From Sphaerolaimus hirsutus (lineage: Eukaryota; Nematoda; Chromadorea; Monhysterida; Sphaerolaimidae): 64,000 nucleotides of DNA. Made by a program: the position numbers and the translations under genes. The stretch spans positions 1,302,001 through 1,366,000 of the forward strand of contig OZ038453.1 of NCBI GenBank assembly GCA_964036195.1, given 5' to 3'. Positions 16,861 to 60,588 of the stretch are shown here, piece by piece. The first letter of the stretch is position 1. Each line of letters begins with the position of its first letter. Under the pieces are notes generated by a model, which saw only the letters and a list, made by a program, of their open reading frames with translations, was not told the origin of the DNA and searched no databases.

Positions 16861-16874
16861 ACATTTTCATACTC

Positions 16875-17603
16875 ATGTTAATCTCAGTCAGGAAGTTAAT
16901 AGCACAGAAGGATATTTTTTTCAAATTAACATCAATGATTCCAAAGTGCAAGTATTTCACATTTAATGTGGTTGTATATTGGCTTGGCCAAATTTTTCCA
17001 GCAATCCTGGCTATTTTAATACCAATATCTATGTTTATTGTTGGGTGGTGGTTTGTAGATGTTGTCAAGACTGTTTCTGAGATGGATCTCACAGAAAATG
17101 ATACAGAAAAAGTTATTTTTCTTGACAACAACAACTATGTAGAGACACACTTTTGGAATAGCATTTATCTATACATGGGATTAAACAGCTTTTATTGTGT
17201 AAATATCTATGTTGTCCTCATGCACCTGAGTTTGATTTTTGGCATTCTTTTGTGCACTCTGAATGCAGTGAAAAACTTCAACAAAAAAGTGAGTTCACTG
17301 ACAACTGTGGATTGTGGCAGCCGTGGATTTGACAAAGTGTTTCAGTCATTTTGCACTGATCACATAAATCTGTGTGTCATCGCTGAAACTGTTAATCACA
17401 TCACTGGTCTATCATTCTTGTACATTTTATGTTTTGATCTACCTATAACAATTCTAGCACTTTACATGATAATAATTGTTGGTGGACCTACCCCTGCACA
17501 ACTTTATTACACTGAAGTTGTTGGCATTTTTCTGGTAGCAGAAGTTCCTATTGTCATCAGTGCAGCATTGCTAAATGAAGAGGTTATTTTTTCTAAAGAC
17601 TGA
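16875..17603 (+). CDS. Multi-span membrane protein exon, copy 1 (gustatory-receptor-like 7TM candidate)
   Basis: An open frame of 242 codons, probably one exon of a larger gene. A plausible acceptor (CTCAGTCAG) puts the exon start at 16892, and a GAG|GT donor-like site its end at 17582. Hydrophobic segments lie at about residues 30-57, 96-130, 170-200 and 212-233. Residues 150-200 (CTDHINLCVIAETVNHITG, then FLYILCFDLPITILALYMI) resemble the TM5-TM6 region of the insect gustatory receptor / GRL (7tm_7) superfamily, whose TM7 is commonly on a separate last exon. That resemblance is from memory of the family pattern, not a search. Three other copies keep most of the frame. The ligand and function are unknown, and it could be another small multi-pass family. 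Confidence 0.5.
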   Translation: MLISVRKLIAQKDIFFKLTSMIPKCKYFTFNVVVYWLGQIFPAILAILIPISMFIVGWWFVDVVKTVSEMDLTENDTEKVIFLDNNNYVETHFWNSIYLYMGLNSFYCVNIYVVLMHLSLIFGILLCTLNAVKNFNKKVSSLTTVDCGSRGFDKVFQSFCTDHINLCVIAETVNHITGLSFLYILCFDLPITILALYMIIIVGGPTPAQLYYTEVVGIFLVAEVPIVISAALLNEEVIFSKD

Positions 17604-18121
17604 TAGATGCTACCTCATCTAAAAGCAATTATGATGTCATTTTACAACAACATCATAATTGTAGAATGCAAATTGTGATGGCACATGCACCCGAACTAAA
17701 GACAGACTAGACAACTTTCATGGTGCTTTTAATACAATTCTCTGTGGTAACATGGTGAACAGTCAATTGGTATACCAACTGCCATTAAAAAATTTGACCA
17801 TTTGACCACTGTCATAAGAATCACATTCTGCTGTGACACTCAATGTGTATGTCATTAAACTTATATCACAATTTGCGTAGCATCCACAATTCGAATCAGT
17901 AGTTCAGTTCAACTCAAGGAAATTTTCTCCCTCCATACAGCTGTCATTTTTCCTGTTCCACATGGCACAAGTGCTGCCAGTGAGTGAATCAAATGATAAA
18001 ATTGATGCAATTTTCAATGGTCACTTTAATAAATTTTCACTGGGCTGTTGGCAGGTGACATGCTGCAACTTCTTCACAATCACCAGATCTCTCATTTTCA
18101 CAGTGAGTGACTGGATGTATT
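17604..18121. other. Downstream flank of membrane ORF, shared with paralogous block
   Basis: Conserved with 45075-45590 at high identity (GATGCTACCTCATCTAAAAG onward). No additional gene is apparent; a TM7 exon was not recognised here. Confidence 0.5.
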
Positions 18122-18529
18122 TACCGTAAATCCTTGAATACGTCCTCCCCCTGGAATAACTCCCCCCTCGAATAACTCCCCCCTGTTAGCCAACTGAGGA
18201 AAAAATAACTCCCCCCCTCGATTAATTCCCCCTTCTCTTTGAGTGGGAAAGTCGTGTATGTATAAAACTGCTGTAAATATGTATTTGTACATAAAAAGTA
18301 TGTATTCTTTTGCAAATGATGTTTACTAGCATTGATTTCATTGCATTAAATACAGATACATGTATGAATTTAAACCAATTTATACAGTATATTGATAATG
18401 CATTTTAATAAATATTCTGACGAAAAAATAACTCCTCCCCTTGAATAACTCCCCCCTCGAATAAGCCCCCCTCAAAAAATTCTGACAAAAAAATAACTCC
18501 CCCAGGGACTTATTTGAGGATTTACGGTA
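18122..18529. mobile_element. Poly-C variant element (TACCGTAAATCC ends)
   Basis: Termini TACCGTAAATCCTTGAATA and TATTTGAGGATTTACGGTA are inverted repeats with CCCCCCTCGAATAACT repeats inside. The element is absent from the paralogous block near 45590 (TGGATGTTTTTAATTTTGG), which gives an empty site. It is related in design to the TACCGTATTTCCTCG family. Confidence 0.85.
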
Positions 18530-23784: not shown

Positions 23785-24197
23785 GTGGAGGGTCATGAAA
23801 AGTTGGGGGTGTATATGTACTGTGTATCCAAATATTATGGTTTTGTATCCAAATCATTTTGTGTATTGACTTCTGATGTTCATTGCTTGACAATTGACCA
23901 TTGAATTCATATTTGTCATGACAATTGACACTGACATTTGTGGTGACAATTTTGACACTTTGCATGACATTTTACATGAAATTTGAGACTTTGCAGGGCT
24001 TGGGACTGGCCACAGTTCCGCAAGTAGGAACCCAAGCAACAAACTAAAAAATTTACATAAAAATGAATTTTCATACAATTTTACAAAAATATGAATTTTT
24101 GTACAATTTGACAAAAAAATTACAAAAATTTCAATTTTTATACAGTTTTTATCTTGACATTTTCCATTTTTTTTGTATTTTATTATTAAATTTTCCA
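23785..24197. other. Unassigned interval with partial palindrome relative
   Basis: Contains a partial copy of the 2315-2493 palindrome unit (about 23945-24010) and A/T-rich TACAAAAATATGAATTTT repeats. No gene is supported. Confidence 0.45.
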
Positions 24198-25047
24198 TTT
24201 TCGATATTTTTAGCATTTGCTGGTGGGCGAGCTTTTATCTCCTGGTCATTGATCCTACACATGAAAAAAGGTAACAGAGTTTTGTGGTTGAGTTCTCGCT
24301 GGCCAGCACCTCGCGCCGGAATTAGCATTTACCAGCTAATTTTACCAAGATGATTATGTGTGTATCCTAAACTTGCGTATCACAAAGAAGAAAAATCAAG
24401 ATGGTTTATTCACAGCGAATAATCAAGTGTCAAAAGAAGGAATGGCACAATTCTCTTATGACCAGTGAGCCACTGGCTCAAATTTACCTCTACGCCATTG
24501 GCGTATCTCTTGAACTTCTTCTGTGCAGGTTCGTCGCCGTTGGCGTGCGCCTGCTGACTGCCGGTGCCGTTCGGTTGCTGCTGTTTCGGGCCGGCGCCGT
24601 TCAAACGTTTTGGAGGTGCCATGATCGGAAATGAGCTAAGTTTCGATGAGATGAAGTCCGTATGAGTGTGTCTGCTGTGACCGCTCTATATTTATACCCT
24701 GGAGCGTAGATGCGTATAATCGTTTTTTTTTTTTTTTGCGCAGTTCAGTGGAAGGCGGTTGCCTTTGATCTACGGAAAATCCTGATATCGACGGATGGAT
24801 CTACATCGCGTTGCTAGCCGTCTTTTGCAGCATTCTTTATCGTGTGAGTTGTGTGTGGTTAGATTTGTATCGGCTTAGTCGCTTTGTTGAGTTGATTTTC
24901 AGATTATTTTTGTTTTATCGATAATAGATAGATTTGATAGGGCAGTACCGGAATATGTTGGAAATAGTGGGATATTTTGTTGAAACATTTTCGGGGAAAT
25001 GTTTTTGGGAATGATTTGGGTTGGGTGGGGTTGTGTTGTATGTGGCC
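24198..25047 (-). repeat. PLE terminal repeat (pLTR), downstream copy
   Basis: About 850 bp directly repeated at 30854-31723 and flanking the PLE body, the arrangement described as pseudo-LTRs of Penelope-like elements. It carries ORF1 exon 1, intron 1 and the first codons of exon 2, so it is the 5' end of a tandemly placed second unit, or the shared terminal region. Confidence 0.85.
24488..24622 (-). CDS. PLE ORF1 exon 1, downstream pLTR copy
   Basis: ATG at 24622-24620 opens exactly 45 codons (MAPPKRLNGAGPK..., Gln/Asn/Lys-rich, ending FKRYANGVE), followed by the donor GAG|GTAAAT, phase 0. A polar, basic N-terminus would suit a nucleic-acid-binding ORF1 product, but no domain is recognised. 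Past the donor, the frame reads through the intron for 25 more codons and stops. Confidence 0.6.
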
Positions 25048-25058
25048 ACTTTCCGGCA

Positions 25059-26939
25059 CTAGCAGGGTTGGGTTTGTGAAGTGATCGATTTCATTATCGA
25101 ATAGATCCATTTCATTATGTCGACGTGTGTGCACAAGTTGTGTTTGGTGGTGAGGTGTGGGTAGTTGATAATTAGTTTTGTAAGCGTAGAATTCATTGGT
25201 TCTATGGGGTATTCCATTTTATGCAAATTTTTCATTAGATCTAGTATGCGTTTCGATCCATCTGACAGATCACTGCAAATTTCTAGGTAACGCTTTGCTT
25301 GGGCATATAAGGTGTTATATCCCAGCTGTCTTTGCACATTGCTTGAGACGTGAGTGTTTTTTACAATGTTAAATTTATAGTTGTCTGTTTTATTCCACAG
25401 GTTGAATTTTGGGCGGTTGGCAACAATGCTGATGTCAAGATCGAGGAAGTGGACCCTCGTCCCGGTTTCAGAGGTGTCTGGTTCGAGTGATAGGTCAGTG
25501 CCATAGATGTCGGTACACATGGCACCAAAGTTTTTCTTGTTGATGACCAGTATGTCATCGACATATCTTTTTGTTTGGTGTAGCATTCTGGCACATATGT
25601 TGTTACATTTGTTGCCTAGGTATCGGTATTCCATGCCAGCTAGGGTCAAGTTTGCAATGTCGCTGGAAGCGCTGCCACCCATTGGTATGCCCAGTGTCTG
25701 TTGGTATATTGTGCCACAGAATTTGATGTATGTGTTCCCCAGAACTGTTTCTAAAAGTTCTGATGTTTTTTGGACAGATAGAATTTTTCCGGGGTTGTTT
25801 GTAGTGTTTTGGGTGGCTTTGTTTTTGTAGATTCTGAAGCAGTTGTTTCGTATAACTAGATCTAGCAGAAAGTCAATATGTGTTTTAATTAGGTGATGGG
25901 GTAGTGTTGTGAACATGTTTGCGAAGTCGTGTGTGTGAATTGAATGTATTTTTTGTTGCTGCTGTAGGCTCTGTGCAACTTCGGTGCTGTTTTTACATAG
26001 CCAATACCTGTTTGTCCCATTTCTTTTCGTGATTATTTTACAGTATGTTTCTAGTCTTTGTGACAGGTATTGTAGGATTTTGTGTAGATCCCATGCTAGG
26101 CTGTTGATGTTTGAGGTTTTACTTCCTGCTATGTATCTGAATTTTATTGGGTTTTTGTGGAATTTCGGCGTTGCGTAGATGACTGGGAATGTTTTGTTGT
26201 ATCAATCCATTTCCCCTTTGTATTCTTCAGTTTTTTCTTTAAGGTATTTGTTGATTTCTGGGGCGATGGATGTTTCTTCACCAATTTGTTTGTATGTGAT
26301 GTTTCCACTTTTTGCAAAGTCACTATTGTATATGCCGAGTTCCTTGGCAATCACCTCTAGGTAATATTTTTTGCATATGAAAGCGTATGTAGCTGCGGCT
26401 TTGTCGATGGGTGTGATCACATATTTTTTGTGCAGTGTAGCTAACAGGTTTTTTATTGTCGTCATGTCGTAGAGCTTTTTTACCATTTTTGGGGCATTTT
26501 TTACTCTTTTCTCCACCAGTGTGATGGATTTTTCGTACCATCCGTTTATTTCTGTTTTATTGTTGGCGTGTTTCTTTAGGAGATGAGTCTTGATTTCTGT
26601 CAGTGTTTCTATTGATTTTTTTATTGTGTTTTGTTTGTGTGGTTTCATTGGTATCTGGTAGTTAGCTCCAAAGCTCAGTATTTCCGCGAGGTCTGTATTT
26701 TTGCATATTTTTAGGTCTCCGGTGATCACATGTCCGTGATGAACGTCTTTGTATTCACTATTTTTGCATTCACAGTCAGAATTTTGTATTTCTATTAACC
26801 CTGTGTGTGTAAGTTTTTTTAGTAGTTTGTTGTAGTTGAACACTGTGACGCCGAAAGGTTGATCGTATTTGCATGTTACCATGACGTCATTCAAGCTTTG
26901 TTTTACTGTTTGATCGAGATGCAATGTTGTTTTTTGCAT
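25059..26939 (-). pseudogene. PLE reverse transcriptase region with in-frame UGA
   Basis: One frame from 26939 to 25059 with a single stop, TGA at 26204-26202; the frame stays open and meaningful on both sides. Upstream: ADxAAATYAF-like (PIDKAAATYAFICKK). Downstream: TPKFHKNPIKFRYIA, motif A DFANMFTTLP (about 25925), motif B LGIPMGGSASSDIANL and motif C YVDD (25553-25564). Catalytic aspartates are present. Aligned by eye to the plus-strand PLE, the UGA falls within one residue of a cysteine. It shares frame with the GIY-YIG frame upstream. This is either a decayed copy or UGA recoding; see findings. Confidence 0.85.
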
Positions 26940-27002
26940 TTGATACTTTTTTGCAGCCCGTTGTGGTTGTCTAGGGGGTTGTCATGGTGGTATGTGAACA
27001 TT

Positions 27003-28235
27003 TTAGGGTTGGCACATTTGATTTTTTGTTCGGCGTGTTTCTGTCTTTTTGCTGTGAGTAGTGCCATGTACTTGTTGTACGTTTCCCATTGGACCTGTTT
27101 GTTTTCCAGTTATGTTTTGTATCTCTGTATGTTTTGTTTTCTGGTGTAGGCATTTTTGTAGGATAGTGTAGTTGCTGTCAGAGTCCATTGGTTCCAGTGT
27201 TTTGTATTGTCTAGTCTTTTTTGTTGTACGTTCTATGCGTCTGCCTATTCTCGGTAGCGATAAGTTGAGAAATGGCAGACGCTTTTTTTTGCTGTTTAGG
27301 TCAATATCGGTGATGTTACCGATACCTTTGATGATGCTGTTTCCACCTAGTGGATATGCTGTTGACATGGCATTGATATAGCTAGCTTCAGTGTCCGTGA
27401 ATTTTTGTGGCTTATTCTTGCCAATTTCAGTAGTGTCGATCTGTTCCAAGATGTCTAGCTTGATCTGATTGGGGTCGCAATTGTTTGTTTTGAAGTGATT
27501 GTAGAAGTAAGTTTCTGTTTTTTTGTCACCATTTAGTGATTTCTTTATCATCCCCATGTGTTGGTAAAACCGTGTTTTCACTTTCTGTTTTGTTTCCCCC
27601 ACATATTGCATTTGGCAGCTTTGGCATGTAAGCATATATATCACATTTGCTGTGTTACACCCCAAGTTTTGGTTGTGTATAAAGTGATTTTTTGTGTTGT
27701 GGGAGGTGTAGTAATGGCTGGTACTGATGTGTGTGCATGACAGGCATTGTTTTGCCATGCACTTAGTGTGTGTGGCACCTCTGTTTATATCGACATTTTT
27801 GACTAGAAGTTCCGGGTATACCGTCAACTTCCAAGCTTGCTCATGGGACCGGGTAGCCCTTAGTAGGGCTGTTGGGTTGGTTCCTTGGATTGTGGGCACG
27901 TATGTAACGTTTGCTAGGCATCTGTGGGCATCGGTTACCCCGGATGCGGTAGCATTGGGCGTGTTACTGTATGTGTGTGAATCCATGTTGGGTGTGTGAA
28001 AACTGAGTTTCAAGAAGAGATGTTTTCTGTAGAAAACTTTTGTGTGTTTGTTAAGTGGCATCAATGTTTCTATCTTACGATGCCGTAAGATCAAGGTGCC
28101 GTAGTTTGTTTTGAGCCCCTGGTCAGTGGGGAATGGTATCGATAGTCGATGTGTGTTGTAAATAAGCCGTGTGAAAAAAATGCAAAAAGCGTTGGTTTGA
28201 GGGCTGGCTCTATCAGGGAACGAACCCTGGACCAT
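27003..28235 (-). CDS. PLE GIY-YIG endonuclease, N-terminal part of ORF2
   Basis: 410 codons from an ATG at 28235. A Cys-rich knuckle (C159, C164, C167) precedes the GIY-YIG core at residues 198-213 (VIYMLTCQSCQMQYVGET), with the conserved Arg/His helix after it (RFYQHMGM). A basic region follows at 280-330. Established role in PLEs: target-DNA nicking. The frame ends in TAA (27005-27003) and a TGA follows at 26984-26982 before the RT frame opens in the same frame, so endonuclease and RT were probably one polypeptide. The first 80 residues look less constrained, and the real start may be MDSHTYSNTP. Confidence 0.8.
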   Translation of the reverse strand: MVQGSFPDRASPQTNAFCIFFTRLIYNTHRLSIPFPTDQGLKTNYGTLILRHRKIETLMPLNKHTKVFYRKHLFLKLSFHTPNMDSHTYSNTPNATASGVTDAHRCLANVTYVPTIQGTNPTALLRATRSHEQAWKLTVYPELLVKNVDINRGATHTKCMAKQCLSCTHISTSHYYTSHNTKNHFIHNQNLGCNTANVIYMLTCQSCQMQYVGETKQKVKTRFYQHMGMIKKSLNGDKKTETYFYNHFKTNNCDPNQIKLDILEQIDTTEIGKNKPQKFTDTEASYINAMSTAYPLGGNSIIKGIGNITDIDLNSKKKRLPFLNLSLPRIGRRIERTTKKTRQYKTLEPMDSDSNYTILQKCLHQKTKHTEIQNITGKQTGPMGNVQQVHGTTHSKKTETRRTKNQMCQP

Positions 28236-29190
28236 TTGTATTACGTGGGTTACGGTACATGGTGACAGTCTTATCTGTTTAGATTTTCGATAGTCGTGAC
28301 TGACTGCCTTTCCGCGGTATATTTGATGTTAGACATGTTGTGTGTAAGACATCTGTAGTGTTTGTATGGGAAAAAATCAGCTCAGCCAAATGTTTAAATC
28401 ACATGTGGTTCAAAAAACCCCTTGCTCAGATGAGCTTGACAATATTTGAGTGGTCATCATCGCCGACTATGATTAGAGGAGCACCCCCTACGCAGCTATT
28501 GCGTTACCGCCTGCGCCATAGCTCCTACAGTGGTTTGGCGTTGGTATTTGAGATAAGCCTTATTCTAATTTTGGTGTGAAGTATCGAGTCTGAATTTTTT
28601 CGGTGGTTGCGGAAGTGTAGATTTGAGTCGTTTTAATTGTGGTAAAAAAAATAGGGCCGAAAAGATATAGTTGTTTTTTAATTTGCGGTAAATTTGTCAA
28701 GAGATAGAAATGTTCATTTCGTTGCGCCACTGTGTGATTTTAGCTGATTTATTGAGCTACCGTGTGAAAATTGGGCGCGCAGCTGATAACGCCCGCAGTG
28801 CGTTGTGACTCTTTGTTTTGTTTATGTTATCGTTTTGATTGTGACATAGTTTTTTTGTAAGAGAAGAGCTGTGCTAGATTAGTGGTGCATCTTCAAGTCG
28901 CTTGTACTTCTATTGTCAAGCGAACAAAGGGTCGCCATAACTAGAAAATGGTTGATTTTTTGAGGAAGCGAGCGGAATTTGAAGTTGCGTGTTTTTTGGT
29001 GTCGAATCTGATGGTGTGTTTTTAGTCCTAAGTTGCTGTAGTGAGACCAATTTACCAAGGGTTTTTGTACGTTCCATATTTACGAGTCAGAGAGTGCAAA
29101 TATGTATAGAGTAGTAGAATAGGCGAGGCGAAAATTACGTTCAGAAAACTTTTGCGGAGTTGTGAAAGGGTGCTAGGAGATGACACTGTA
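28236..29190. other. Spacer between PLE ORF1 and ORF2, with a structured motif
   Basis: No coding frame of note. A 48-nt segment at 28478-28525 can form nested stems and, on the minus strand, includes an A-box-like TGGCGCAGGCGG. A B-box-like GGTTCGTTCCC (minus strand) is at about 28217-28228. The spacing is wrong for a tRNA. The other PLE has a spacer of similar length. Confidence 0.45.
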
Positions 29191-29419
29191 TCAGTACAGA
29201 TCACTTTTGCTCTTTGTAGTGCCCCACGCGTGGCGTGTCTGGAGCCGCATTGGCCCGCCGCTTGCTTTTGTTGCGCCCGCGAACCGTTTGCCAGTTGTTG
29301 CCGTTGCCGCCGGAAGCGGTGGGAGTGCCGGCGCTTGTAGAGGGGCCAGGGGTGTCTGTGCCCGGGGGTTTGAGGTTGAGGGGTGGTGTGTGGAGGGTTG
29401 TATGGTAATGTGAGACACC

Positions 29420-30014
29420 TTAAATTTAGCCCAAAATTGAAAAGCAGCGCTCGCCAAGTCACCTGACTGCTGGCTGGTGCCGCTTCTCGGGTCTCGGGTG
29501 CTGATTGGTTGGGGCGCGGGTATTTGAGGGGGCGTGCACTGCTGGCGCAGCAGCACCTGTTTTTTCTGCATCGCTTTTGGGTCTTTCTGAGGGAGGGGGG
29601 GATCAGTGTATTCTATGATGATTTGTACGTCTGGTAAATTTATTATGTCAAGCATTTTTTTGACAAGGTTGTCCCTATTATGACGTACCTTTGCCAAAGC
29701 TTGACCCTCGCTGATCAACACCTCGTGTTTGATCTCGAAATCGCCCGCATAGAGGACTTCAAGGGGTTTCGTGTCTCTAGGAGCCCTGATCGGTGCACTA
29801 CCGATCTTGGGCCCCTTGAGCATGAATTAGCGGTGCATGTCCAAGGCTAAAGTAGCAAAGAAGTCCAGGCTCTTGCAACTAGACTCCTCCTGGAGCTCAG
29901 TCCTGGATTTGTCTTTTTGCAAGTGGATCCTGCCGTCCCATACACCCTTCAACCTGGACGCGTTGGAGAGCAGCAGTTCGGCCGCCGTCCATGTGACGAA
30001 TTTTGTCTGCGCAA
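29420..30014 (-). pseudogene. PLE ORF1, 3' exon(s)
   Basis: The minus-strand reading opens after a good acceptor (TTGCGCAG|ACAAAATT near 30014) with TKFVTWTAAELLLSNASRL and reaches a TAA after LDMHR near 29829. It then continues in the same frame with MLKGPKIGSAPIRAPRDTKP and a charged segment EVLISEGQALAKVRHNRDN, then a Pro/Gln-rich tail. A donor-like AAG|GTGTCT near 29420 may end the exon. Base composition is richer in GC than the flanks. No domain is recognised; by position it is the protein upstream of the PLE endonuclease. Confidence 0.5.
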
Positions 30015-30287
30015 GTGGGGCGTGAGAGAAATGTAATATGTGTTTGCAAAAATGTGTTTGTGTAGGAGAAAGGAGTGTGGGTTTATTTACTGATCGAAAA
30101 TGTCAAGTTTTTTGATGTAGAATGAGTGTGAGAAGTGGTGTGAAGGGATGAAAAAAGTGGGGGGTCTTTTTGACATGTTGTGAAAGGGATGGGACACATG
30201 TTGTAGATGCGATGTGTGTCACATTGGAGAAGGTTGTGTTCATAGAACTAGATACTGCATAAAACCAATTACTATACCCCGTTACTC

Positions 30288-30897
30288 ACAACCATGACTC
30301 CGCCCCGGAAGTCCACCGAGTCAAGCTCGCGAACACATTTGTGATCGCTGCCCAACCCCATGCTGCCTGCCATCAAGTTGCAAACAAAGCGTTTCAGGTT
30401 GTGGGCGCTGTGCGAGCGAGGCTTGATGCCGTGACCTTTCCAGATGACGTTGTACCAACTGAGCGTGCTGAAGATGTGCTTGATAGCCGCCGCGTTAGTC
30501 TCCGTGGTGGGTGCCTCGGGCTGTGAGGTGGGGGGTGGTATTTTTGTTGTGTGTGTAGGAGAAAGTTGTGCATTTCCGGTGTATGTAACCTTACTGTTAA
30601 GCACTTTACCAAGGGCCTGATGCTTAACAGGGGTTGCATACTGACAGTTTGTCTATCATTTGCTAGCTTCATTAATAAACCCTGACGGCGAATATTAATG
30701 TCCTTAGCGGTGTACCTGATAGGCATAAATAGATTCTGATGCTACTCATGCTTCTCAGGATTTTTTTGTGAGTACATATTTGTTTTTCTGGTGATACTCG
30801 CTGTATGTGCATTGCCAAAATGCACAAGCAATTGCACAGGGACAACGGAATCATTTTCGATTTTTTTAGCATTTGCTGGTGGGCGAGCTTTTATCGC
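30288..30897 (-). pseudogene. PLE ORF1, middle exon(s)
   Basis: Opens at acceptor CAATGACCAG|GCG (30897), phase 0, in register with exon 1. It reads AIKARPPANAKKIEN..., meets a TAG at 30744-30742, continues as MPIRYTAKDINIRRQGLLM, then shifts frame near 30640 to a reading with HIFSTLSWYNVIWKGHG and ends at a GTGAGT donor near 30288. One nonsense codon and one frameshift show this copy is dead. No domain is recognised. The exon structure is inferred from splice signals and continuity of protein-like sequence. Confidence 0.5.
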
Positions 30898-31723
30898 CTG
30901 GTCATTGATCATACACATGAAAAAAGGTAACAGAGTTTTGTGGTTGAGTTCTTGCTGACCAGCACCTCGCACCGGAATTAGCGTTTACCAGCTAATTTTA
31001 CCAAGATGATTTCGTGTGTATCCTAAACTTGCGTATCACAAAAAAGAAAAATCAAGATGGTTTATTCACAGCGAATAATCGAGTGTCAAAAGAAGGAATG
31101 GCACAATTCTCTTATGACCGGTGAGCCACTGGCTCAAATTTACCTCTACGCCATTGGTGTATCTCTTGAACTTCTTCTGTGCAGGTTCGTCGCTGTTGGC
31201 GTGCGCCTGCTGACTGCCGGTGCCGTTCGGTCGCTGCTGTTTCAGGCCGGCGCTGTTCAAACGTTTTGGAGGAAATGAAGTTTCGATCGGAGAGGCGCCA
31301 TGATCGGAAATGAGCTAAGTTTCGATGAGATGAAGTCCGTATGAGTGTGTCTGCTGTGACCGCTCTATATTTATACCCTGGCGCGTAGCTCCGTATAATC
31401 GTTTTTTGTTTTTTGCGCAGTACAGCGGAAGGCGGTTGCCTTTGATCTACGGATAATCCTGATATCGACGGATGGATCTACATCGCGTTGCTAGCCGTCT
31501 GTTGCAGCATTCTTTATCATGTGAGTTGTGTGTGGTTAGATTTGTATCGGCTTAGTCACTTTGTTGAGTCGATTTTCAGATTATTTTTGTTTTATTGATA
31601 ATAGATAGATTTGATAGGGCAGTACTGGAACATGTTGGAAATAGTGGGGATATTTTGTTGAAACATATCCGGGAAATGTTTTTGGGAATGATTTGGGTTG
31701 GGTGGGGTTGTGTTGTATGTGGC
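30854..31723 (-). repeat. PLE terminal repeat (pLTR), upstream copy
   Basis: Direct repeat of 24198-25047. Relative to that copy it has a 23-nt insertion (about 31271-31293) just inside ORF1 exon 1. The repeat ends at the TGTATGTGGC motif near 31723, beyond which the copies diverge. Confidence 0.85.
31144..31301 (-). pseudogene. PLE ORF1 exon 1, upstream copy, frameshifted
   Basis: ATG at 31301-31299 corresponds to that at 24622 in the other pLTR, but the 23-nt insertion shifts the frame and brings a TGA after about 14 codons. The remainder still matches exon 1 to the same GAG|GTAAAT donor. It is the exon that would be used by the full element, so this PLE cannot make normal ORF1 protein from this ATG. 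Confidence 0.65.
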
Positions 31724-32042
31724 TCCACTTTATTTTCTTTTCTGATATTTTGCCAACTGTTCCCAATTTATCCTATTTGTTTAGTTTTTTAGTGGTTAAA
31801 TGTAAAAGTATACTCTTTACAATGAATTTCATGAAAATTTCTGACGAAATATTAACCCCCACTCTTTGAATAAGCCCTCCCCCAAATACCCCCCTCAAAA
31901 TATCTGGCACAATTTTTGGAAAATTTATTCCTAATTTTTGCTAAAAATTGCTCATTTTCAGAGCAATTTTCAAGCCCATGGTGATTTTACCTACAAAATC
32001 ACTAGCCTGTTGCTTATTGTTGGCTTATTTTTATATGAAACA
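31724..32042. other. AT-rich interval with poly-C element fragment
   Basis: A short remnant of the poly-C family lies at about 31848-31912 (CCCCCACTCTTTGAATAAGCC). Otherwise unassigned. Confidence 0.5.
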
Positions 32043-32214
32043 TAGGGTGTCAACTTTCCATTTTCCATTTCTGCTTACCACAGGCAAATTTTTTTCTGTT
32101 TCCATTCATGTTTTCCAGCTGCTAAATTTACTTCTGGTTCCATTTTCATTTTTCCGGCAAGTGCAAAAAAATTCCGTTTCCGTTTTCTGCCAAAAAGTTT
32201 TTGCTGACACCCTA
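32043..32214. mobile_element. hAT-like MITE, TAGGGTGTCA ends (short copy)
   Basis: TAGGGTGTCAACTTTCC and GCTGACACCCTA termini. Flanking octamers ATGAAACA and ATGAAATG match at 6 of 8. The interior consists of TTTCCGTTTTC-type repeats (complement GAAAACGGAAA), as in the longer copy at 43093-43637. Confidence 0.75.
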
Positions 32215-32351
32215 ATGAAATGCTGACACATAACAATTGCGGGTTTGGTGACACCCACCTTACCTCTACAAATGCCTTCTTTGCCATTTTTCACTTATAT
32301 TAAGCAATTTTTGACCCATATTTCACGATTTTTTTAACCTATTTTTAGTGA

Positions 32352-32551
32352 NNNNNNNNNNNNNNNNNNNNNNNNNNNNNNNNNNNNNNNNNNNNNNNNN
32401 NNNNNNNNNNNNNNNNNNNNNNNNNNNNNNNNNNNNNNNNNNNNNNNNNNNNNNNNNNNNNNNNNNNNNNNNNNNNNNNNNNNNNNNNNNNNNNNNNNNN
32501 NNNNNNNNNNNNNNNNNNNNNNNNNNNNNNNNNNNNNNNNNNNNNNNNNNN
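32352..32551. other. Assembly gap (200 N)
   Basis: Exactly 200 undetermined bases. It lies in AT-rich repeat DNA before a CTTCAC-type MITE. The unit AAATCTAAATTTTGAT-like sequence recurs on the right side. Confidence 0.98.
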
Positions 32552-32673
32552 TGCAGATAAATTTTTATACATGCAAATCAGAATTTTGATGATAAAATTA
32601 TTTGCAAATAAATTTATTTTTAAACGTGCAAAAATAAATTTTGATTGCCAAAAAAATCAATGTCTACATGTCT

Positions 32674-32903
32674 ACAGCAAAAAATGGGTGTGTGATGCGC
32701 GGTGAAGTGTCCTGAAGTGACTTCACGCAGATGCGCAATGTCGGCATGAAGACACTTCACTGCATTCTAGATGCTTCATGGCACTTTACGAACCATGCAA
32801 AGTATGCTGCAAAGGTTCATGAAGTGCACTTCACAAATTTCGGTCTTCGTCAAGCTAGGTGAAGTGAGTGGAAGACACTTCACGAATCTATTTTTTGCTG
32901 TGT
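32674..32903. mobile_element. CTTCAC/GTGAAG-rich MITE, second copy
   Basis: Ends ACAGCAAAAAATGGGTGTG and ATCTATTTTTTGCTGT match the ends of 12550-12928. The interior is again GAAGTG/CACTTC in alternating orientation, including short palindromes. Non-coding. Confidence 0.7.
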
Positions 32904-33038
32904 GTGCAAATCTAAATTTCGATTTGCAAAAAAAATTATTTTTAAACATGCAAATCGAGATTTCAATTTGCAAAAGTACATTTTTATGCATTTTTATGTT
33001 TTTAAAAATTCATATTTGTCATTTTTTCATTTTTTGTA

Positions 33039-33081
33039 TTTGTCGGTTTGGGTCTTGTTCACGAGACCCGAACCGACAAAT
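33039..33081. repeat. Perfect-arm hairpin
   Basis: 17-bp arms (TTTGTCGGTTTGGGTCT against its complement, one mismatch) around an 8-nt loop. It is not followed by a T run that would suggest termination. Function unknown. Confidence 0.7.
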
Positions 33082-33139
33082 TGAGCAAAAACTATGGTGG
33101 TTGGATCGATCATGCAACTGTTTGTCGTCACGTTGCTGT

Positions 33140-34399
33140 CACAAGCTGTGAACGGTTATTCTGTGACGACAACAGTCAGGAGTAAAACATTCCGACCCAA
33201 CCAACAAACACGGATAATGAGGCTTTTTTGTTGGCACATGCAAAATTTTTGAAAAAATTGTGCGTTGTTGTGACAAAATGTCCGTTGCCGACAGAAAAAA
33301 TTTGTTGGCACAGCTCAGTGTGAACGCCACTTAAACGTATTTACGGCGTACTTGCATACGCGTATTTTTCGTGTAAACGTATGTACCTTTTAACAACTCT
33401 GCACCAGTCATGGCCACCAGGTTTTGTAAAAACTCAAGTTTTTTTGATAAAAACACAAGTTTTTTATATAATAAACTCAAGTTTTTTTTTGCAAAAAGTT
33501 GCTTTCTAGAGCATTTTATTGTGGAAACAGTGGTTTTCTTATCAAATATTGGTATATTTTTTCATGTATTGGAAAAAATTTTTCATTAGTTCACTGGTGG
33601 TAGTTACAAATGGGTGACCAAGAGACACCTTTTACAGTTTGGGAGGTGAGGAACCCTACAGCTTCACAGTGAGCTAGCAGATGCTGGTGGACATTCCTCA
33701 ACACTTCGATCACAGTCCTTATCATTGTCAAAACCACCCGGAGATGCGTACACAATCTTTTATTTTTTTTGGATACTTATTTCATCATTGAACTTGGCCA
33801 CTTAATGAATATATTTACACACTATACATACAAATGCATATACCCACATTCTTTAGGTAAAATCATGTGCCTCCAAGTACTTGGATAAAAAACTCAAAAA
33901 CATTTTTGTATTTTCTGTGTTTCTGTGTTTCCGTGTTCTCCAAAAAAGAACTCATTTGAGTCTCCGTGTTGTTCAAAATTGTTGAGTTTCTGTGTTTCTG
34001 TGTTAAACTCAATGAGTCTCCATATTTAATATGTGTGTTTTTGCCATCGTTGATCATGGCACTTGTACAGTGCACCAGGCTCAGCAGAGCTAAATATATC
34101 ACACACCAAAAAGTGGCATGTGTTATTTTGCTCTGGGTTCATTTCAAATTTCAAATTCAAATACTCTGTCAGTCATCATAAATGACAGTTTGCCTTGAAA
34201 ACATTGGCCCCCCATGCTAGAGGTAGGACAAAATACCTAAGTCCTAAATACACTGAATAAATAAGTTGCAAAAGCATATTAAAGCTCACCCAAAGTACAC
34301 TTTTACATGGTACGCTTCTGCGTTAACGCATTTCCACTACAGCTAGCCTTTTTCCAACATAATAGTAATTTGTGAATTCTGCCTTTAAAAAAATACCTA
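33140..34399. other. Unassigned AT-rich interval
   Basis: Includes a CAGAGTTG-family right end at about 33388-33402 (CCTTTTAACAACTCTG) and simple ACTCAAGTTTTTT and TTTCTGTGTTTCTGTG repeats (33430-34030). No gene is supported. Confidence 0.45.
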
Positions 34400-34640
34400 T
34401 ATTTTATAGCTGTTCTCAATGATCTTCACATATTTCACACTGCTGTTGCAATTCAACATTTGAGATGTCCAGTGGGATGGAATTATGAGCTCCTTGATCA
34501 TGTAAATATTTACATGTGTGAAAACAATCATTTGTATTCGTATTTTGTTTGTGTTGTATCATTTTAGTGTGGGGAATCTGAACTTTTCCTTTTAAAAACA
34601 GCTTTTTATCAACTATACTCAATTTTTCACATTGTTGTTA
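34400..34640. repeat. Dispersed repeat, isolated copy
   Basis: Matches 18725-18960 and 45780-45990 (TATAGCTGTTCTCAATGATC and CAGTGGGATGGAATTATGAG). It lies outside the duplicated blocks. A weak 68-codon minus frame is partly shared by the other copies, but it is not preserved to a common end. Confidence 0.7.
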
Positions 34641-35062
34641 GATAATTCTCAAAATTATCTGGAATTGTAAATAAATCTGTTTAATAGATTGTCTTTTTTT
34701 GCATTGATGTCAATGCAGTAACAAGTTACTTATATTTACTCAAGTGACCAATAAGCCATTACTATGCATTTTGGATTGTTTGATACAATACAAATTATTT
34801 TGTCTGAAATTTCAATTCCATTGATCCCATTAATTTCATAGTTATCCACTTAATCTATGAAAATAAATTTTAACTACTCTACTTGACTTTGGTTGAGTGA
34901 CCTATTTATGTTGCTTTTTAAACTTCACAGTACCAAGCATAAAATGGTTACCACTGCCGAGGATCGAGTTCCCCAGTGGTAATTATGCATAAATAGTATT
35001 GTAAATTCAGTGAACTTTATGGAATACAACAGTCTACCTAAATGATGTTCGTACCAGTGCCA
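34641..35062. other. Unassigned interval
   Basis: AT-rich, nothing supportable seen. Confidence 0.4.
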
Positions 35063-35235
35063 GACCAGAGTTGTTAAAATACCGGTATTTTTGGAAAGCG
35101 TAAGCGTAAGCGTAAATACGCTTTCCAAATTTTCAGTATGGATTAGGGTGTCAAAAGATTTTTTTTACAGAAAACGGAAACGGAAAAATATTTTCAGCGG
35201 CCAGAAAACGGAACGGAAAACGGAAATGTGGCCAT
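35063..35235. mobile_element. Fragments of CAGAGTTG- and TAGGGTGTCA-type elements
   Basis: 35063-35146 is a left end of the CAGAGTTG family (CCAGAGTTGTTAAAATACCG, with GCGTAAGCGTAAGCGTAAAT repeats). From 35147, TAGGGTGTCAAAAG begins a TAGGGTGTCA-type element with GAAAACGGAAACGG repeats that lacks its right end. The PLE sequence that follows may have truncated it. Confidence 0.6.
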
Positions 35236-35331
35236 TTTTTATAAATATATCTACTTGATAGACAGCTACAGCCCTTACCTGTCCCAAAATATGCATTACT
35301 TGCCAAATGGTATACTCCCCATTTTTTATAG

Positions 35332-35535
35332 GGAGGGGGAAAAAACGGCGGCCTGAATCACGTGCTTCTGGTCCGTCTGACGGCCGATATCGATTTGAAA
35401 ATGATTTTTTCCAAAAAGGGGCAGCCGGCGTTCAAATCTTACAAAATGGGCAGCGACAAGCCCGTTTCCATCAACCGCCAATTTTCGGCAGACGATAGAT
35501 GGGATCAGGTCTTTTCAAATTTTGGGAATATTTGA
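35332..35535 (+). CDS. Candidate ORF1 exon of plus-strand PLE (a)
   Basis: A plus frame of 67 codons after a TAG at 35329: GGGKNGGLNHVLLVRLTADI onward to SINRQFSADDRWDQV. It is followed by CAG|GTCTTT, a weak donor. The protein-like composition and raised GC set it apart from its surroundings. It has no initiator near its start, so it would be an internal exon. No domain is recognised. I assign it to the PLE by position and by analogy with the other PLE. Confidence 0.4.
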   Translation, partial: GGGKNGGLNHVLLVRLTADIDLKMIFSKKGQPAFKSYKMGSDKPVSINRQFSADDRWDQVFSNFGNI

Positions 35536-35756
35536 GCGTCCTCATGATCTGGATGGATACTACTGACATTATAATTTACTTTGAAATAAAATTATTTATA
35601 CACTATATAAAAATTTAATTATATTGGATATATTTATACAGTTTCGGCACTTCAATTAAATCACCTATCCCAAGCTGTAACAAAAACCTTTCAACCTAAA
35701 ACTGCTCCAAACCCAGCTCTGTATTTATACAATAAATATATTTAACACCCCTGTGT

Positions 35757-36017
35757 ATGCCTCAGATTCGATGCCGCGAGGTGGCGCTCGCGCTGTGCAG
35801 GAAAAAGGGCTGGGACATGCGCAACGCGATCAAACTCATGGGTAACCGTTTCAAGGCTAATGGGCAGGTGAAATTGTACAGTGACTGGATTAAGGACGAA
35901 AATTTGATAATTGACCCGGCGAAAATGGGTACTGGGTGGACCCCTCCCCCAGGGACCATTTTAGCCCATTCCAGTGATAGCCTTACCACCCCGGGTCCGA
36001 GTACAAGTGCCAATTAA
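35757..36017 (+). CDS. Candidate ORF1 exon of plus-strand PLE (b)
   Basis: A plus frame of 86 codons with its own ATG and stop. It is basic and hydrophilic in its first half (REVALALCRKKGWDMRNAIK) and ends in a Pro/Ser/Thr tail. An acceptor-like CCTCAG near 35764 could make it the last ORF1 exon. It precedes ORF2 by 887 bp. No domain is recognised. Confidence 0.45.
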   Translation: MPQIRCREVALALCRKKGWDMRNAIKLMGNRFKANGQVKLYSDWIKDENLIIDPAKMGTGWTPPPGTILAHSSDSLTTPGPSTSAN

Positions 36018-36789
36018 CAAGGTACATTAAACACTAAATTACTTCTAGCATTTCGAAAAATTATAGCCTGTTCAAATCTAGAAATAATCCTTTAAATTTG
36101 CTTTATACATTAAATTGTCAATTGGCACTGCGTCTTGACATTTACGTACCTTTCGGTCACATGAAAAACTTGTGTTTCCTTACTGAAATTTTGGTGATGG
36201 TGATAACATATGATACTTTCATTTGTTATACTCCGCGTACATGATACTCTGCCCTCGCACTCATTTATGTCTCATGTTGGAAATGTGCCAATGATAAAAC
36301 ATGCCTTTTTGTTTACTCTGAAAAATGCCTTTTTTTAAAATTGTCGGCACATTCCCAGCGTGAACCAGGCGTACAGGGTGGTAAGTGTGTGGAGTATACG
36401 TGGTATTTATCTAATAATTTTACTACCTTTTTATCTAATGTTGAATTTCTACATATTTCGGCATCTCGATACGTTCTCGGGTGAAATTTGTCTATTTTTA
36501 AGGCAGTTACAAAAAATTTTTTAACTATTCAGAATTAGAATTTGAAATTTAGTCGGTGAACTATATTTACATGCACGAAGTTAGTTTAATAAATTTGATG
36601 AGTGGTACATAGTTATAGCTGAGTCAACTGGACTGGAATATGATTAAGCAACAACGCTCTGCGGGGCGTCCCGTTTTCATGCAATTAAATATGATTCGAT
36701 TTTCAACTTTTTCTTTCAGTCCAACTTTCTCCAGTTACAGTGTCTTATGCATTTTTATTTTTGGCATGAACAAGCGATAATAGGGGTGA
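36018..36789. other. Spacer between PLE ORF1 and ORF2
   Basis: AT-rich and without coding signature. It corresponds in position and length to 28236-29190 of the other PLE. Confidence 0.5.
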
Positions 36790-36903
36790 ATGGGATCGGC
36801 TTCTAAGGGTTCCCCGGGGCCAGTCGGGGACCCTGGCATGCCCATTTCACTTCTCATATTGGTGGGAGCCCTATTTAGGGTCACCGGCCCGCCATAAAAA
36901 GCC

Positions 36904-39774
36904 ATGCGGCTCGAAAGTACTGGCACTTCTTACCCTGCCCCTGGTTTAGGCCAGCCAGGTGGCAGCTTCCGGCCTGCTTCTAACCTTCCACTCGCTTCAA
37001 CCTACCACTTTGCGACAAGGAAATGCACTGTTGTCAATGATGGCTCAGCCGTCAGTGTTATTCCAAGTCAAAATTCCAGTCGTAAACTCACCACTACGCC
37101 CTGCGGTAACTGCTCGTTTTGCCAGTTCATAAACACCGATGAATTTTGCAGTAAGACAAGTGCTGGTTTTCAATACTGCTTGGAACAGAACGAGACAGTT
37201 TCGTGTGACACCAAAAATGTTGTTTACCTGATTTCGTGTGACAATTGTGGTATTCATTATGTTGGAGAGACTAGTAGAAAATTCAAACTTCGCATTGGCG
37301 AACATTTGAGAAGTTTCGTGAAGGGTACACTACAAACAGAACTTGTAAAACATTTTTATCAGAACGGACACAATCCAGTCTTTAAAATTCTAGGAGTTTA
37401 TGAACAGTGTAATTTACTTGAAATGGAAAAGGAATGGATTTTGATATTGAACAGTGCTTTTCCTTTTGGCCTCAATACAAAAATTCCTGGCTATGGAACA
37501 ATTAAAAGGAACAACATCCCTAAATTTGCCAATAGCCCATATTTCTGCAGACCTGTACCAAGGGATCACAGTAATCGAATAAGGAATAATAAGAAGAAAA
37601 GGAAGCGAATGTCCATTGATGAGATCTGTGAAAAATTGCTTAACATGCCACTAGTAGATAATGATTTTTCTAGCATTTTGAACTTTTTAAGACAATGTAA
37701 ATTACAAGAATTTAAAGAAATGCAGAGGAGAATTTGCCTACTGCACAGAAGACTTTGTGATGGTTCTACAGAATTGGCTATGGCTGTGCTGGGATTTTTG
37801 ACAAGTAAAGGGGATATGCTCAAACAGCAACCAGTAGACATAAGAAAGAAACATTACTTCACTTGTAAATTTCCTGGTGCCTTAATGGACTGCATTAGGC
37901 CAGCAAAATTTATAAATAGCAAAATATTTTGTGATAGAATATATGAGGACTGGCTGAAACACAACAAATTTATAATCTGCTTCACATATGATCGTCCTCT
38001 CTCACATGAACTGTGCAACCACAATAAACTATTCAAAAACATTTCACAAGCAAATTTGGAAAAAATTGTAAATGAAGACTGTACCTGTGCCACATCACCT
38101 TTCTCTGATAAATATCATAAGCACATTATTACTGGGAATCTTAAAGTACTGCAAGATAAGTATATAGAAAATGCATTACGTTTGGGAGCAAAATATAGAT
38201 ACACTTCAGACAATAGTATTGATGGTTGCACCCGCAACATAGAAGAACTTATCCAAAAAATTTGTGTTAAAGTTAACATGACAATGTCAAATGAAATTAA
38301 AAGAGATTTATGTAACTTCATTAAAAAACGAACCAAAAATTGGGTTGATACTCTCCCGGATCAACTTGACATGTCATATATTCGTTCAACTTGCCATAAA
38401 TTACATGAGAAATTTATGATTGCACCAGCCGATAAGGCTACAAGTAATTTAATTGTGGTTTGTCGCAAATTCGCTGCTCAAGCCATGTGCAATGAACTGG
38501 GGATTACCTGGTGCAATGGTATTATGCAATGCAGAGGTAATGCAACCTATGCCCCAGTAGTGGGAACTGAAACAGAAATAATTGACAAACACAACAAAAT
38601 TTTGGAAAATTTGAACATCAAAAGTAGCAGCTGTAAACCTATGTTACCTAGACTTTTCCCAATTCCTAAAATGCACAAAAATCCACCTAAATTTCGTTTT
38701 ATTAGTGGAGGGAGTTCAGCACCAATAAAGCCTGCGGCTACAGTGCTACATAGAATCCTAAGACACTTTAAAGCACATATACAAAACTACAGCTATTCCA
38801 TGTCTGATGGCACTGACACAGGCTGTATTGCATATTGGCCCTGTGAATCTTCACTTGAAGTAGAAAATTTTATAAATAAAATTAGTAAATATGACATTAA
38901 AGTTAGCTGCTATAGTGGAGACTTTTCTACACTGTATCCAAATATGTGCCACACTGAAATTTTAAGATGTATCAACAAATTAACGGAAAAATGTTTTTTC
39001 AATTCGCATAAAAGATATCTCATAATTGGCTACCGTAATCTGTGGTACAGTGACACCAGACACAAACGCCTTCTCTCAATTGACAAAGAAGGAGTGATAA
39101 ACTTGCTAAAAATAGTCCTTTCGGAATCCTACATAAATTTTGCTGGGCAATTATTTCGTCAAAGTTCAGGGTTACCGATGGGATGTGCTTCTGCTCCTAG
39201 TATTGCTTGTGCTAGCCTAATGTGGAGAGAATTTGAATGGGTTACTAAACATAGAGTTCAACAGAATAAAATGTTGAGATGCTTCCGCTACATAGATGAT
39301 CTGTTAATATGTTTTAAAAGTAACTGTGGCATAAATGCAGAAAATATAGTTAAAGAAATTTACCCATCGAACTTACCACTTAATAGAACAGATATAAATG
39401 GGTGTTCAACTGATTTTTTAGACATGTCTCTAGATTTTGAGAATTTCAGCTGGAAGGTCTATGACAAAAGACTAGACTTCAATTTTAAATGTATAGCTGC
39501 CACCAATTTCAGAAGCGCTCAAGCACTTAGTGTTAAAAAAGGAGCATTTTTTGGACACTGGCTTCGAGCGATGAGACTCAGCTCAACCTGGGATAACTTT
39601 GTTAGCAGCATCAAGCCTATCATAGAAAGTCATCTATTCAATGAATATACACCTGAAATACTATATGAGGTGGCGATTAAATGTATTAGTAAATATAGAG
39701 ACTTATTATGGAAGTTTGAACTAGGTATAGACACATACACATTGCATAAAATTAGAAATTTATTTATCCATTAA
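36904..39774 (+). CDS. PLE ORF2: GIY-YIG endonuclease + reverse transcriptase, intact
   Basis: 956 codons without interruption. A Cys knuckle (C67, C70, C73) precedes the GIY-YIG core VVYLISCDNCGIHYVGET at residues 107-123, with R130/H134 in the next helix and a Glu-rich helix LEMEKEWILILN near 172-183. A basic linker (RNNKKKRKRM) follows. RT motifs: APADKATSNLIVVCRK, IPKMHKNPPKFRFIS (about 586-600), motif A SGDFSTLYPN with D673, motif B GLPMGCASAPS, motif C YIDD at 796-799, and a DFLDMSLDF motif after it. The start is set by an upstream in-frame TAA (36895-36897); beyond that stop another 35 codons are open (MGSASKGSPGPV). All catalytic residues are present, so this copy may be active. Domain order marks it as Naiad-type. 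Confidence 0.92.
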   Translation: MRLESTGTSYPAPGLGQPGGSFRPASNLPLASTYHFATRKCTVVNDGSAVSVIPSQNSSRKLTTTPCGNCSFCQFINTDEFCSKTSAGFQYCLEQNETVSCDTKNVVYLISCDNCGIHYVGETSRKFKLRIGEHLRSFVKGTLQTELVKHFYQNGHNPVFKILGVYEQCNLLEMEKEWILILNSAFPFGLNTKIPGYGTIKRNNIPKFANSPYFCRPVPRDHSNRIRNNKKKRKRMSIDEICEKLLNMPLVDNDFSSILNFLRQCKLQEFKEMQRRICLLHRRLCDGSTELAMAVLGFLTSKGDMLKQQPVDIRKKHYFTCKFPGALMDCIRPAKFINSKIFCDRIYEDWLKHNKFIICFTYDRPLSHELCNHNKLFKNISQANLEKIVNEDCTCATSPFSDKYHKHIITGNLKVLQDKYIENALRLGAKYRYTSDNSIDGCTRNIEELIQKICVKVNMTMSNEIKRDLCNFIKKRTKNWVDTLPDQLDMSYIRSTCHKLHEKFMIAPADKATSNLIVVCRKFAAQAMCNELGITWCNGIMQCRGNATYAPVVGTETEIIDKHNKILENLNIKSSSCKPMLPRLFPIPKMHKNPPKFRFISGGSSAPIKPAATVLHRILRHFKAHIQNYSYSMSDGTDTGCIAYWPCESSLEVENFINKISKYDIKVSCYSGDFSTLYPNMCHTEILRCINKLTEKCFFNSHKRYLIIGYRNLWYSDTRHKRLLSIDKEGVINLLKIVLSESYINFAGQLFRQSSGLPMGCASAPSIACASLMWREFEWVTKHRVQQNKMLRCFRYIDDLLICFKSNCGINAENIVKEIYPSNLPLNRTDINGCSTDFLDMSLDFENFSWKVYDKRLDFNFKCIAATNFRSAQALSVKKGAFFGHWLRAMRLSSTWDNFVSSIKPIIESHLFNEYTPEILYEVAIKCISKYRDLLWKFELGIDTYTLHKIRNLFIH

Positions 39775-39914
39775 TATCGATGTTTGGTAAACCGTATCCA
39801 AATATTAACCATCAAAATAACCCTGATCCTCAAGTTGCATTAATGGCGGTAAATTCGAAATTTCGGCGCGCATGTTATAACTGCCGCTTCCAGAACTTTC
39901 CGCTCACTCTAATT

Positions 39915-40013
39915 ATGCCCAAAGCTGGCAGTAAACGACCACAAAATTTTTCACCAGTAGGTAACAACACCACAATGTCCGACGAAACTTCAACGCCGAC
40001 CGCCGCTGCACCA
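39915..40013 (+). CDS. PLE ORF1 exon 1 in terminal region
   Basis: The ATG opens exactly 33 codons (MPKAGSKRPQNFSPVGN...) before a strong donor CCA|GTAAGT, phase 0. A short, polar, basic first exon with a phase-0 donor is just what the other PLE has at 24488-24622. It lies downstream of ORF2, as expected if the terminal region is shared by tandem units. The overlapping 84-codon frame from 39780 includes it but has a weaker start. Confidence 0.6.
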
Positions 40014-40083
40014 GTAAGTTTAGGTTTTCAATAAGAATGTAGGTTTGGTAGGGTAAGTAAGGTATAAGGATTGGTGGTCAGTA

Positions 40084-40151
40084 CTGATGAGACCCTGCCA
40101 CCACTCACTAAAAAATCCCCTGTCTGCTGAAAAGGGTCGAAACAGGGTGTA
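40084..40151 (+). ncRNA. Hammerhead ribozyme motif
   Basis: Core CTGATGA at 40084-40090. Stem II is GACCCT (40091-40096) with AGGGTC (40133-40138), a perfect 6 bp around a 36-nt loop, followed by GAAA at 40139-40142. A tight stem III follows (ACA, loop GGG, TGT) and then A at 40151, giving a GUA cleavage triplet. Order (stem I open, small stem III) fits the type I hammerheads known from PLE terminal regions. Stem I pairing is weak in my reading. It lies in the predicted first intron of ORF1. Confidence 0.75.
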
Positions 40152-40250
40152 GGCTTGGAGGTGCTGAGGGAGTGCACCATGTGACTTTTCCAAGCCTTTT
40201 TGAATTTTGTTTATGTCTTTATTCTTTTTTTCTTCAAAAACATCCAATTG

Positions 40251-60380: not shown

Positions 60381-60588
60381 TTTGTGGTGAATTTGCCATC
60401 ATTGGTACATAGCATTATTAGCACAGGCTGCCTGAAAAAGATGTTGTGCCAATTAAATTTCATACCAGGACCAATAACACAATGGAAACTTCAGTACATT
60501 TTGTACATAGCAATACTTTTTAAGTACTACATATGTATTCTCTTTTTAATACTCTTACATTTACATTTGTAATTTTAATCTTAACCAG

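Follow-up and report, generated by a model that had tools for sequence, protein, structure and literature searches.

A 64,000-nt stretch of the Sphaerolaimus hirsutus genome (contig OZ038453.1, positions 1,302,001 to 1,366,000; hereafter the window, to which all coordinates refer unless a locus is named) holds two Penelope-like elements (PLEs), one on the minus and one on the plus strand. The minus element encodes a multi-exon upstream protein (open reading frame 1, ORF1) ahead of its endonuclease-reverse transcriptase (EN-RT; ORF2). Exon 1 of ORF1 lies in the terminal repeat, and intron 1 contains the point at which copies of the element end. The plus family carries, downstream of the donor of its own exon 1, a predicted hammerhead-like ribozyme of the non-circular type CSG. 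We hypothesize, with moderate confidence and from sequence comparison, that intron 1 bears a copying signal, such that spliced RNA would serve as ORF1 mRNA and unspliced RNA as the template. Copies of both elements were sought in 348 Mb of genome sequence.

Both elements encode a GIY-YIG domain that exceeded the Pfam cut-off and is N-terminal to the RT; the RVT_1 matches downstream of it (E = 0.0026 in the minus and 4.1e-06 in the plus element) both fell under Pfam's cut-off. Minus ORF2 spans 25059-27986 (conserved ATG at 27986-27984; frame interrupted in the window copy), and plus ORF2, defined by translation and Pfam, spans 36904-39774. The translations contain a CxC motif between EN and RT (DCEC in the minus and DCTC in the plus element), a feature of Naiad-like PLEs, and the order GIY-YIG then RT is one that we take to be Naiad-like. 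By the position of GIY-YIG before RT, both are Naiad-like Penelope retroelements, of the type with an N-terminal GIY-YIG that Craig et al. reportedly described in 2021. The minus element is bounded by pseudo-long terminal repeats (pLTRs) at 31731-30852 (5′) and 25052-24196 (3′), which are 92.9% identical in a blastn self-match; the low-coordinate end of the latter is the 3′ terminus of the element. Each pLTR contains a TATA-like box read from the sequence, TATAAATA, at 31375-31368 and 24696-24689, respectively (minus strand). The plus element is 5′-truncated, with a recognizable span from 35766 to about 40248. Among its ORF1 exons upstream of ORF2, only the last (35766-36017) was recognized, through 33 matches in the same genome, 29 of which begin within query residues 1-9.

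The initial annotation had described a first exon of exactly 45 codons in the minus element and of exactly 33 codons in the plus element. The 45-codon frame, ending GAG/GTAAAT, is present and intact at 24622-24488, in the 3′ pLTR, and the plus exon 1 (39915-40013, in the 3′-terminal region) has exactly 33 codons ending CCA/GTAAGT. The length does not hold for the minus 5′ exon 1 (31144-31301, minus strand), the copy that would feed ORF1: it has 158 nt and is out of frame because of a private 23-bp insertion, absent from all 10 other aligned 5′ copies. A many-copy consensus test, proposed with the annotation, came out in favor of a conserved frame for minus exon 1. Intact 45-codon frames followed by GT were found in 26 of 31 copies (loci L009-L028 plus the window; L001-L008 were dropped as overlapping); in the other five the frame is broken, namely in the 5′ copy for the window and L013, in the 3′ copy for L016, and in L021 and L024. 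The ratio of nonsynonymous to synonymous differences (pN/pS) was 0.33 in this frame, compared with 1.12 and 1.61 in the shifted frames (21 distinct intact copies). Plus exon 1 was open over 99, 99, 99, 99, and 96 nt in L029-L033, in phase 0 and followed by GTAAGT; its pN/pS of 0.54, against 1.51 and 0.98 in shifted frames (five copies), is a weaker signal than that of the minus family.

Downstream of exon 1, the best model of minus ORF1 differs from the annotated one, which had opened exon 2 after CAATGACCAG (from 30897). That acceptor is in phase and its CAG is present in 11/11 copies; the coding evidence beyond it is weak, and it is not the best supported choice. The frame from 30897 had a pN/pS of 0.51 (0.83 and 0.77 in the other frames), with no stop over 32 codons and an identity of 96.5%. 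Read in the individual copies, it meets a stop after 51 codons in the window, L011, L017, and L018, after 37 in L009 and L010, after 15 in L015, and after 76 in L016; L013 and L014 are frame-shifted, and L012 is stop-free over the 100 codons read. The stretch from 30897 probably represents a conserved RNA stretch with a possible alternative acceptor (30898). Better supported by the aligned copies is a putative acceptor at 30521/30520 (CTCACAG/CCCGAG), which follows a pyrimidine tract, is in phase 0, and opens a 77-codon exon found in 11/11 copies. Intron 1 of this model (30521-31143, minus strand) has GT..AG ends in 11/11 aligned copies and includes the pLTR end at 30852. Its pN/pS was 0.84-0.99 in the pLTR part and 0.67-0.86 beyond, with stops in all frames. 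By contrast, exon 2 (30290-30520) had a pN/pS of 0.07 (10 copies, as for the exon values that follow).

Coding sequence continues over further exons to 29204. Intron 2 (30007-30289; GT..AG in 11/11 aligned copies) is followed by a coding block that spans exons 3 to 4 over 196 codons (29419-30006; the window copy has a single in-frame TAA) and by a last exon, E5 (29201-29355, stop at 29203-29201), all on the minus strand. Splice dinucleotides were kept in 11/11 aligned copies at all four gaps examined. The pN/pS values were 0.11 in exon 3, 0.30 in E4a, and 0.31 in frame 2 of E5 (2.15 and 2.63 in its other frames), compared with 0.87-0.97 in intron 2 and 0.71-1.38 in intron 4. Third-position changes prevailed in exons 2 and 3, in the stretch 29688-29587, in exon 4 to 29419, and in one frame of E5. 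The stretch 29688-29587 has in-frame GT..AG ends, yet its first 75 bases are coding (pN/pS 0.11); six distant exon 3 matches stop at query residues 108-111, near its donor, and we treat it as coding or optionally spliced. Donors at 29462 and 29418 may both reflect alternative splicing. Together, 29688-29587 and 29462-29419 are splice-able stretches under protein-level selection, which suggest retained or alternative ORF1 introns.

ORF1 is widespread in its own genome. Exon 2 had at least 34 matches, down to 38% identity, of which 33/34 were stop-free, and exon 3 at least 36, down to 51% identity, of which 35/36 were stop-free, the exception being the window copy. Exon 3 lay downstream of 33/34 exon 2 matches; the two were separated by 197-455 nt in 31 of these 33 pairs, by 1,608 nt in one, and by 10,909 nt in another, and none was adjacent or intronless. 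The window and 10 other aligned copies all have ORF1 placed between pLTR and ORF2. Judged by its exons, splice dinucleotides, and protein-level selection across copies, minus ORF1 is a real multi-exon gene. Its product had no Pfam match, and the best hit of a profile search against PDB had an E-value of 0.48; AlphaFold single-sequence models were poor (mean predicted local distance difference test score 57.5 for exon 2 and 38.8 for the exon 3 block). Exon 1, E5, and exons 3-4 of L012 encode basic segments (isoelectric points 10.0, 11.0, and 9.7), and exon 2 a near-neutral one (7.4). Composition alone points to a nucleic-acid-binding role for ORF1, most likely as a basic partner of the EN-RT.

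The common end point of minus copies falls inside intron 1. Among pLTR copies lacking the rest of this intron, 16/17 stop matching within 3 nt of position 24196 (corresponding to 30852 upstream) and then enter differing sequence. In the exception, L022, the match stops 35 nt earlier; a second copy in L017 runs into the next unit. Conservation across the 5′ region also peaks at this point: the 60-nt window 30860-30801 (minus strand) is 97.5% identical across 10 copies, the highest value among 37 windows over 31400-29181 (best exon window 95.6%). In another PLE, PAc of Anolis, the accessible text describes internal RT initiation near the junction of pLTR and reading frame (PMC11167929); by analogy, 30860-30801 is a possible RT-recognition element or copying signal. 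A second conserved, probably structured and non-coding RNA, recognized by alignment and consensus fold, lies between ORF1 and ORF2 (28529-28207, minus strand). It is 73-90% alike in 60-column windows (14 sequences), compared with 45-68% in most windows before it, and 2 of the 67 pairs of its consensus fold (10 sequences) changed on both sides. It could act as an internal ribosome entry site, or as some other RNA signal, upstream of the ORF2 start codon (27986). ARAGORN, run on the window, predicted no tRNA, and the tRNA-like look of this stretch was therefore set aside.

In the plus family, the stretch about 55-133 nt downstream of the exon-1 donor contains the ribozyme motif (40069-40147, plus strand). 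A hairpin, P0 (40069-40077/40098-40106), holds in its loop one strand of stem I, the CTGATGA box (40084-40090), and one strand of stem II; the loop of the stem III hairpin (40118-40122/40143-40147) encloses the cleavage site (predicted cut at 40124/40125), then the partner strand of stem I, AAA, the stem II partner, and GAAA (40139-40142). Stems I (40078-40083/40125-40130) and II (40091-40095/40134-40138) thus pair between the two loops. In the window, stem I has 6/6 pairs (one of them G-U), stem II 5/5, and stem III 5/5. The core letters CUGANGA and GAAA, the UH site, and, in hammerhead position numbering, the pairs G10.1-C11.1 and A15.1-U16.1 were all present in the window, in L031, and in L040, a separate element discussed below. 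A hammerhead scan that allowed any block order covered the window and 37 loci. Only the window, L029, L031, and L036 (which is the window's own locus) gave matches, all in C-S-G order, and 0/20 Markov control windows did. The canonical types I, II, and III (orders CGS, GSC, and SCG) were considered and set aside, C-S-G being the sole order found. Rfam, searched at E up to 1 over 24000-42000, returned no hammerhead and three chance-level matches, an outcome to be expected if the fold is not nested.

The motif is also repeated across the genome. The ribozyme block had 185 candidate places, of which the 40 scored reached 88-100%. The exact C block occurred at 32 places and the exact S-G block at 27 (the window, with its G-U pair in stem I, not among them); an exact C followed by an exact S-G block was found at 22 places, and reversed-pattern controls gave 0. 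Nested folds of the three RNAs tested included P0 and stem III (z-scores -2.13, -3.98, and -4.15). The named pairs were formed in 94.1% of cells, compared with at most 44.1% when slid, and cells paired to this extent were reached by 3/500 shuffles; the overall covariation score was 0.039, against 0.031 in shuffled alignments (0/500 reached it). As a predicted structure, the ribozyme fold is present and conserved in the plus family. We infer that it lies in an intron, taking the post-donor stretch for the same intron as minus intron 1. Directly 3′ of it is a conserved hairpin (40152-40196, plus strand), with 98-100% of pairs kept in 13 distinct copies. The 185 candidates for the ribozyme block compare with nine matches for the 341 bases around the ORF2 end and exon 1, as if small pieces had spread. 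At about 4350-4650 of L034 and L035, a ribozyme end with a mutated core is joined to other sequence, followed by AC repeats.

L040 provides a divergent case. A pattern scan of genome contigs matched five, of which one (L040) contained a complete C-S-G motif; the contig pattern alone is estimated to give about five matches by chance, so the case for L040 rests on its stems and PLE context. Its motif (531-609 of L040) is full and meets the thresholds of the any-order scan, with 8/8 pairs in P0, 5/5 in stem I, 6/6 in stem II, and 3/3 plus a further 7/7 in stem III; the sequences of P0, stem I, and stem III differ from those of the window. BLASTP aligned the L040 protein with plus ORF2 over 927 columns at 25% identity (E = 1e-70). 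The protein has KCIC between EN and RT; Pfam did not recognize it, with one chance-level match. The motif follows a candidate first exon (ATG...CAC/GTAAGT, 475-490) and precedes ORF2 by about 2 kb. An acceptor at 1006 would give a 71-codon open frame with this exon, which is only suggestive given that 9/47 tested AG sites gave more than 40 codons. The ends of L040 (1-5336) overlap by 119 identical bases, which gives it the look of a single unit from a tandem or circular array. The contig is labelled as part of a Flavobacteriaceae metagenome-assembled genome yet carries a Penelope-like unit, and presumably has a eukaryotic origin. Among viral contigs, three protein scans and one DNA pattern scan found nothing.

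The minus terminal repeat supplies both a TATA-like box and exon 1 of the multi-exon ORF1. Intron 1 starts in the repeat and passes the element end, and so carries the conserved RNA at the likely point of RT start. We propose that spliced RNA would become ORF1 mRNA and lose the copying signal, and that unspliced RNA would be the copied template, which in the plus family would first be cut by the ribozyme. Copies would thus keep their introns because splicing would remove a signal needed for copying. In the minus family, where no ribozyme was detected at the scan threshold, only the splice/no-splice part would apply. To our knowledge, Naiads are said to lack canonical hammerheads, and a non-circular form would fit. 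More tentatively than the proposal as a whole, we suggest that Naiad-like PLEs may be a natural home of type-CSG hammerheads, with splicing to mRNA and self-cleavage by the intron-1 ribozyme to unit-length genomic RNA as competing fates of one transcript.

Several observations weigh against this interpretation. At the scan threshold, no block order gave a hammerhead in the minus family, so the ribozyme is not essential to the layout. In the plus family, 8/14 aligned ribozyme copies have an intact core and 6/14, including L034 and L035, a broken one; these two loci keep only the last bases of exon 1, the rest being replaced by other sequence. Covariation within the genome is weak, with 1/38 pairs changed on both sides, a level reached by 444/500 shuffles, and the search pattern had partly dictated stem II of L040. 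The initial annotation had placed exon 1 of both elements in the terminal repeat, ahead of a conserved intron-bearing protein. In the minus family both parts are borne out, the second by many copies; the plus exon 1 is framed in L029-L033 and lies in a 3′-terminal region (39780-40248) for which no repeat partner was seen, each of the eight matching loci, like the window, holding a single match, and no acceptor was seen for plus intron 1. That annotation did not mention the conserved RNA features that follow the donors. In minus ORF1, the conserved acceptor at 30898 could yield another isoform. A 2-nt shift occurs near the end of 29688-29587 in L015 and L016, and L026 is also shifted there; the junction of exon 4 and E5 is ambiguous, as coding extends to 29419, whereas the frame under selection in E5 agrees with a donor at 29462 and not with that at 29418, and a single splice does not suit both.

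Among rival explanations, an antisense template deserves most attention, though we consider it unlikely: ORF1 would be real, and introns would be kept since antisense RNA is copied, splicing playing no part in choosing the template. An antisense template would indeed also keep introns, as the accessible text on Penelope families of A. vaga indicates (PMC3846280). The ribozyme, however, is sense to ORF1 and ORF2, and minus copies end at one sense-strand point, observations still compatible with an antisense template. A slightly less probable alternative is that the C-S-G motif works as a conserved RNA to which RT or ORF1 binds, without any self-cleavage, its hammerhead likeness being secondary. 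The surrounding block stays conserved in the 6/14 copies with a mutated core, and the hairpin 3′ of the motif is as conserved as the motif. Against it, all core letters and three stems are present in the window and recur in L040 with another P0, stem I, and stem III, and the two C-S-G RNAs published so far each showed cleavage in vitro (PMC10085705). That ORF1 is a host gene carried along outside the life cycle of the element seems highly improbable; PLEs can mobilize intron-bearing host genes, according to the available part of PMC3846280, and ORF1 matched no family, yet its constant position between pLTR and ORF2 in the window and 10 aligned copies, with exon 1 inside the pLTR, argues otherwise. 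Hardly credible is the view that no ORF1 protein exists and that decay or chance accounts for the upstream frames: the window copy has its 5′ exon 1 out of frame and a TAA in exon 3, but protein-level selection over 10 copies and the stop-free exon 2 (33/34) and exon 3 (35/36) matches speak for a protein. An intron-borne copying signal remains our best explanation overall.

The elements share with Naiad-type PLEs the GIY-YIG before RT, the CxC between them, and, in the minus element, pLTRs; they differ in the multi-exon ORF1 that starts in the pLTR and in the type-CSG hammerhead. Eckert et al. (2023) describe type CSG as a non-circular block order, with two sequences tested that both cut in vitro, and state in the text available to us that it occurs only in metagenomes (PMC10085705). 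The motif described here shares with these RNAs the C, S, G order, all core letters, and the helix tying stems I and II, and its 3-nt link between the strands of stems I and II is as that paper, in its accessible part, describes for the sister type SGC. It differs in that the published type came from two metagenomic sequences, whereas here it follows the exon-1 donor of a retroelement and is present as 22 or more exact copies besides variants. PAc of Anolis, in the accessible text, similarly has a ribozyme near the start of the pLTR and reading frame, tandem units, and internal RT initiation, but a C-terminal GIY-YIG, a single reading frame, and a canonical hammerhead (PMC11167929). In the A. 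vaga Penelope families, as far as the available text of PMC3846280 shows, the pLTR likewise includes the first codons of the reading frame and one family has a spliceosomal intron; there is no separate ORF1, and the term is absent from the main text. A literature search for 'type-CSG' with hammerhead returned PMC10085705 alone, whose single mention of 'Penelope' is in its reference list. None of the titles and abstract openings covered for ORF1, Naiad elements, and PLE introns or hammerheads described the layout, within a coverage that excluded the 2021 Naiad paper and most of the subscription literature.

Elsewhere in the window, the repeats at 16133-18123, 44217-45592, and 60412-62529 form one family (72-93% identical to each other). 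The second of these contains a 271-amino-acid open frame (44259-45074) that by eye has the look of a membrane protein.

If the proposed arrangement is true, a rare non-circular hammerhead would gain a biological address, many natural test sequences, and a reason to exist, and Penelope elements with an N-terminal EN would gain a second protein. The question of why PLEs keep introns would then become testable, with the copying signal lying in the intron itself.

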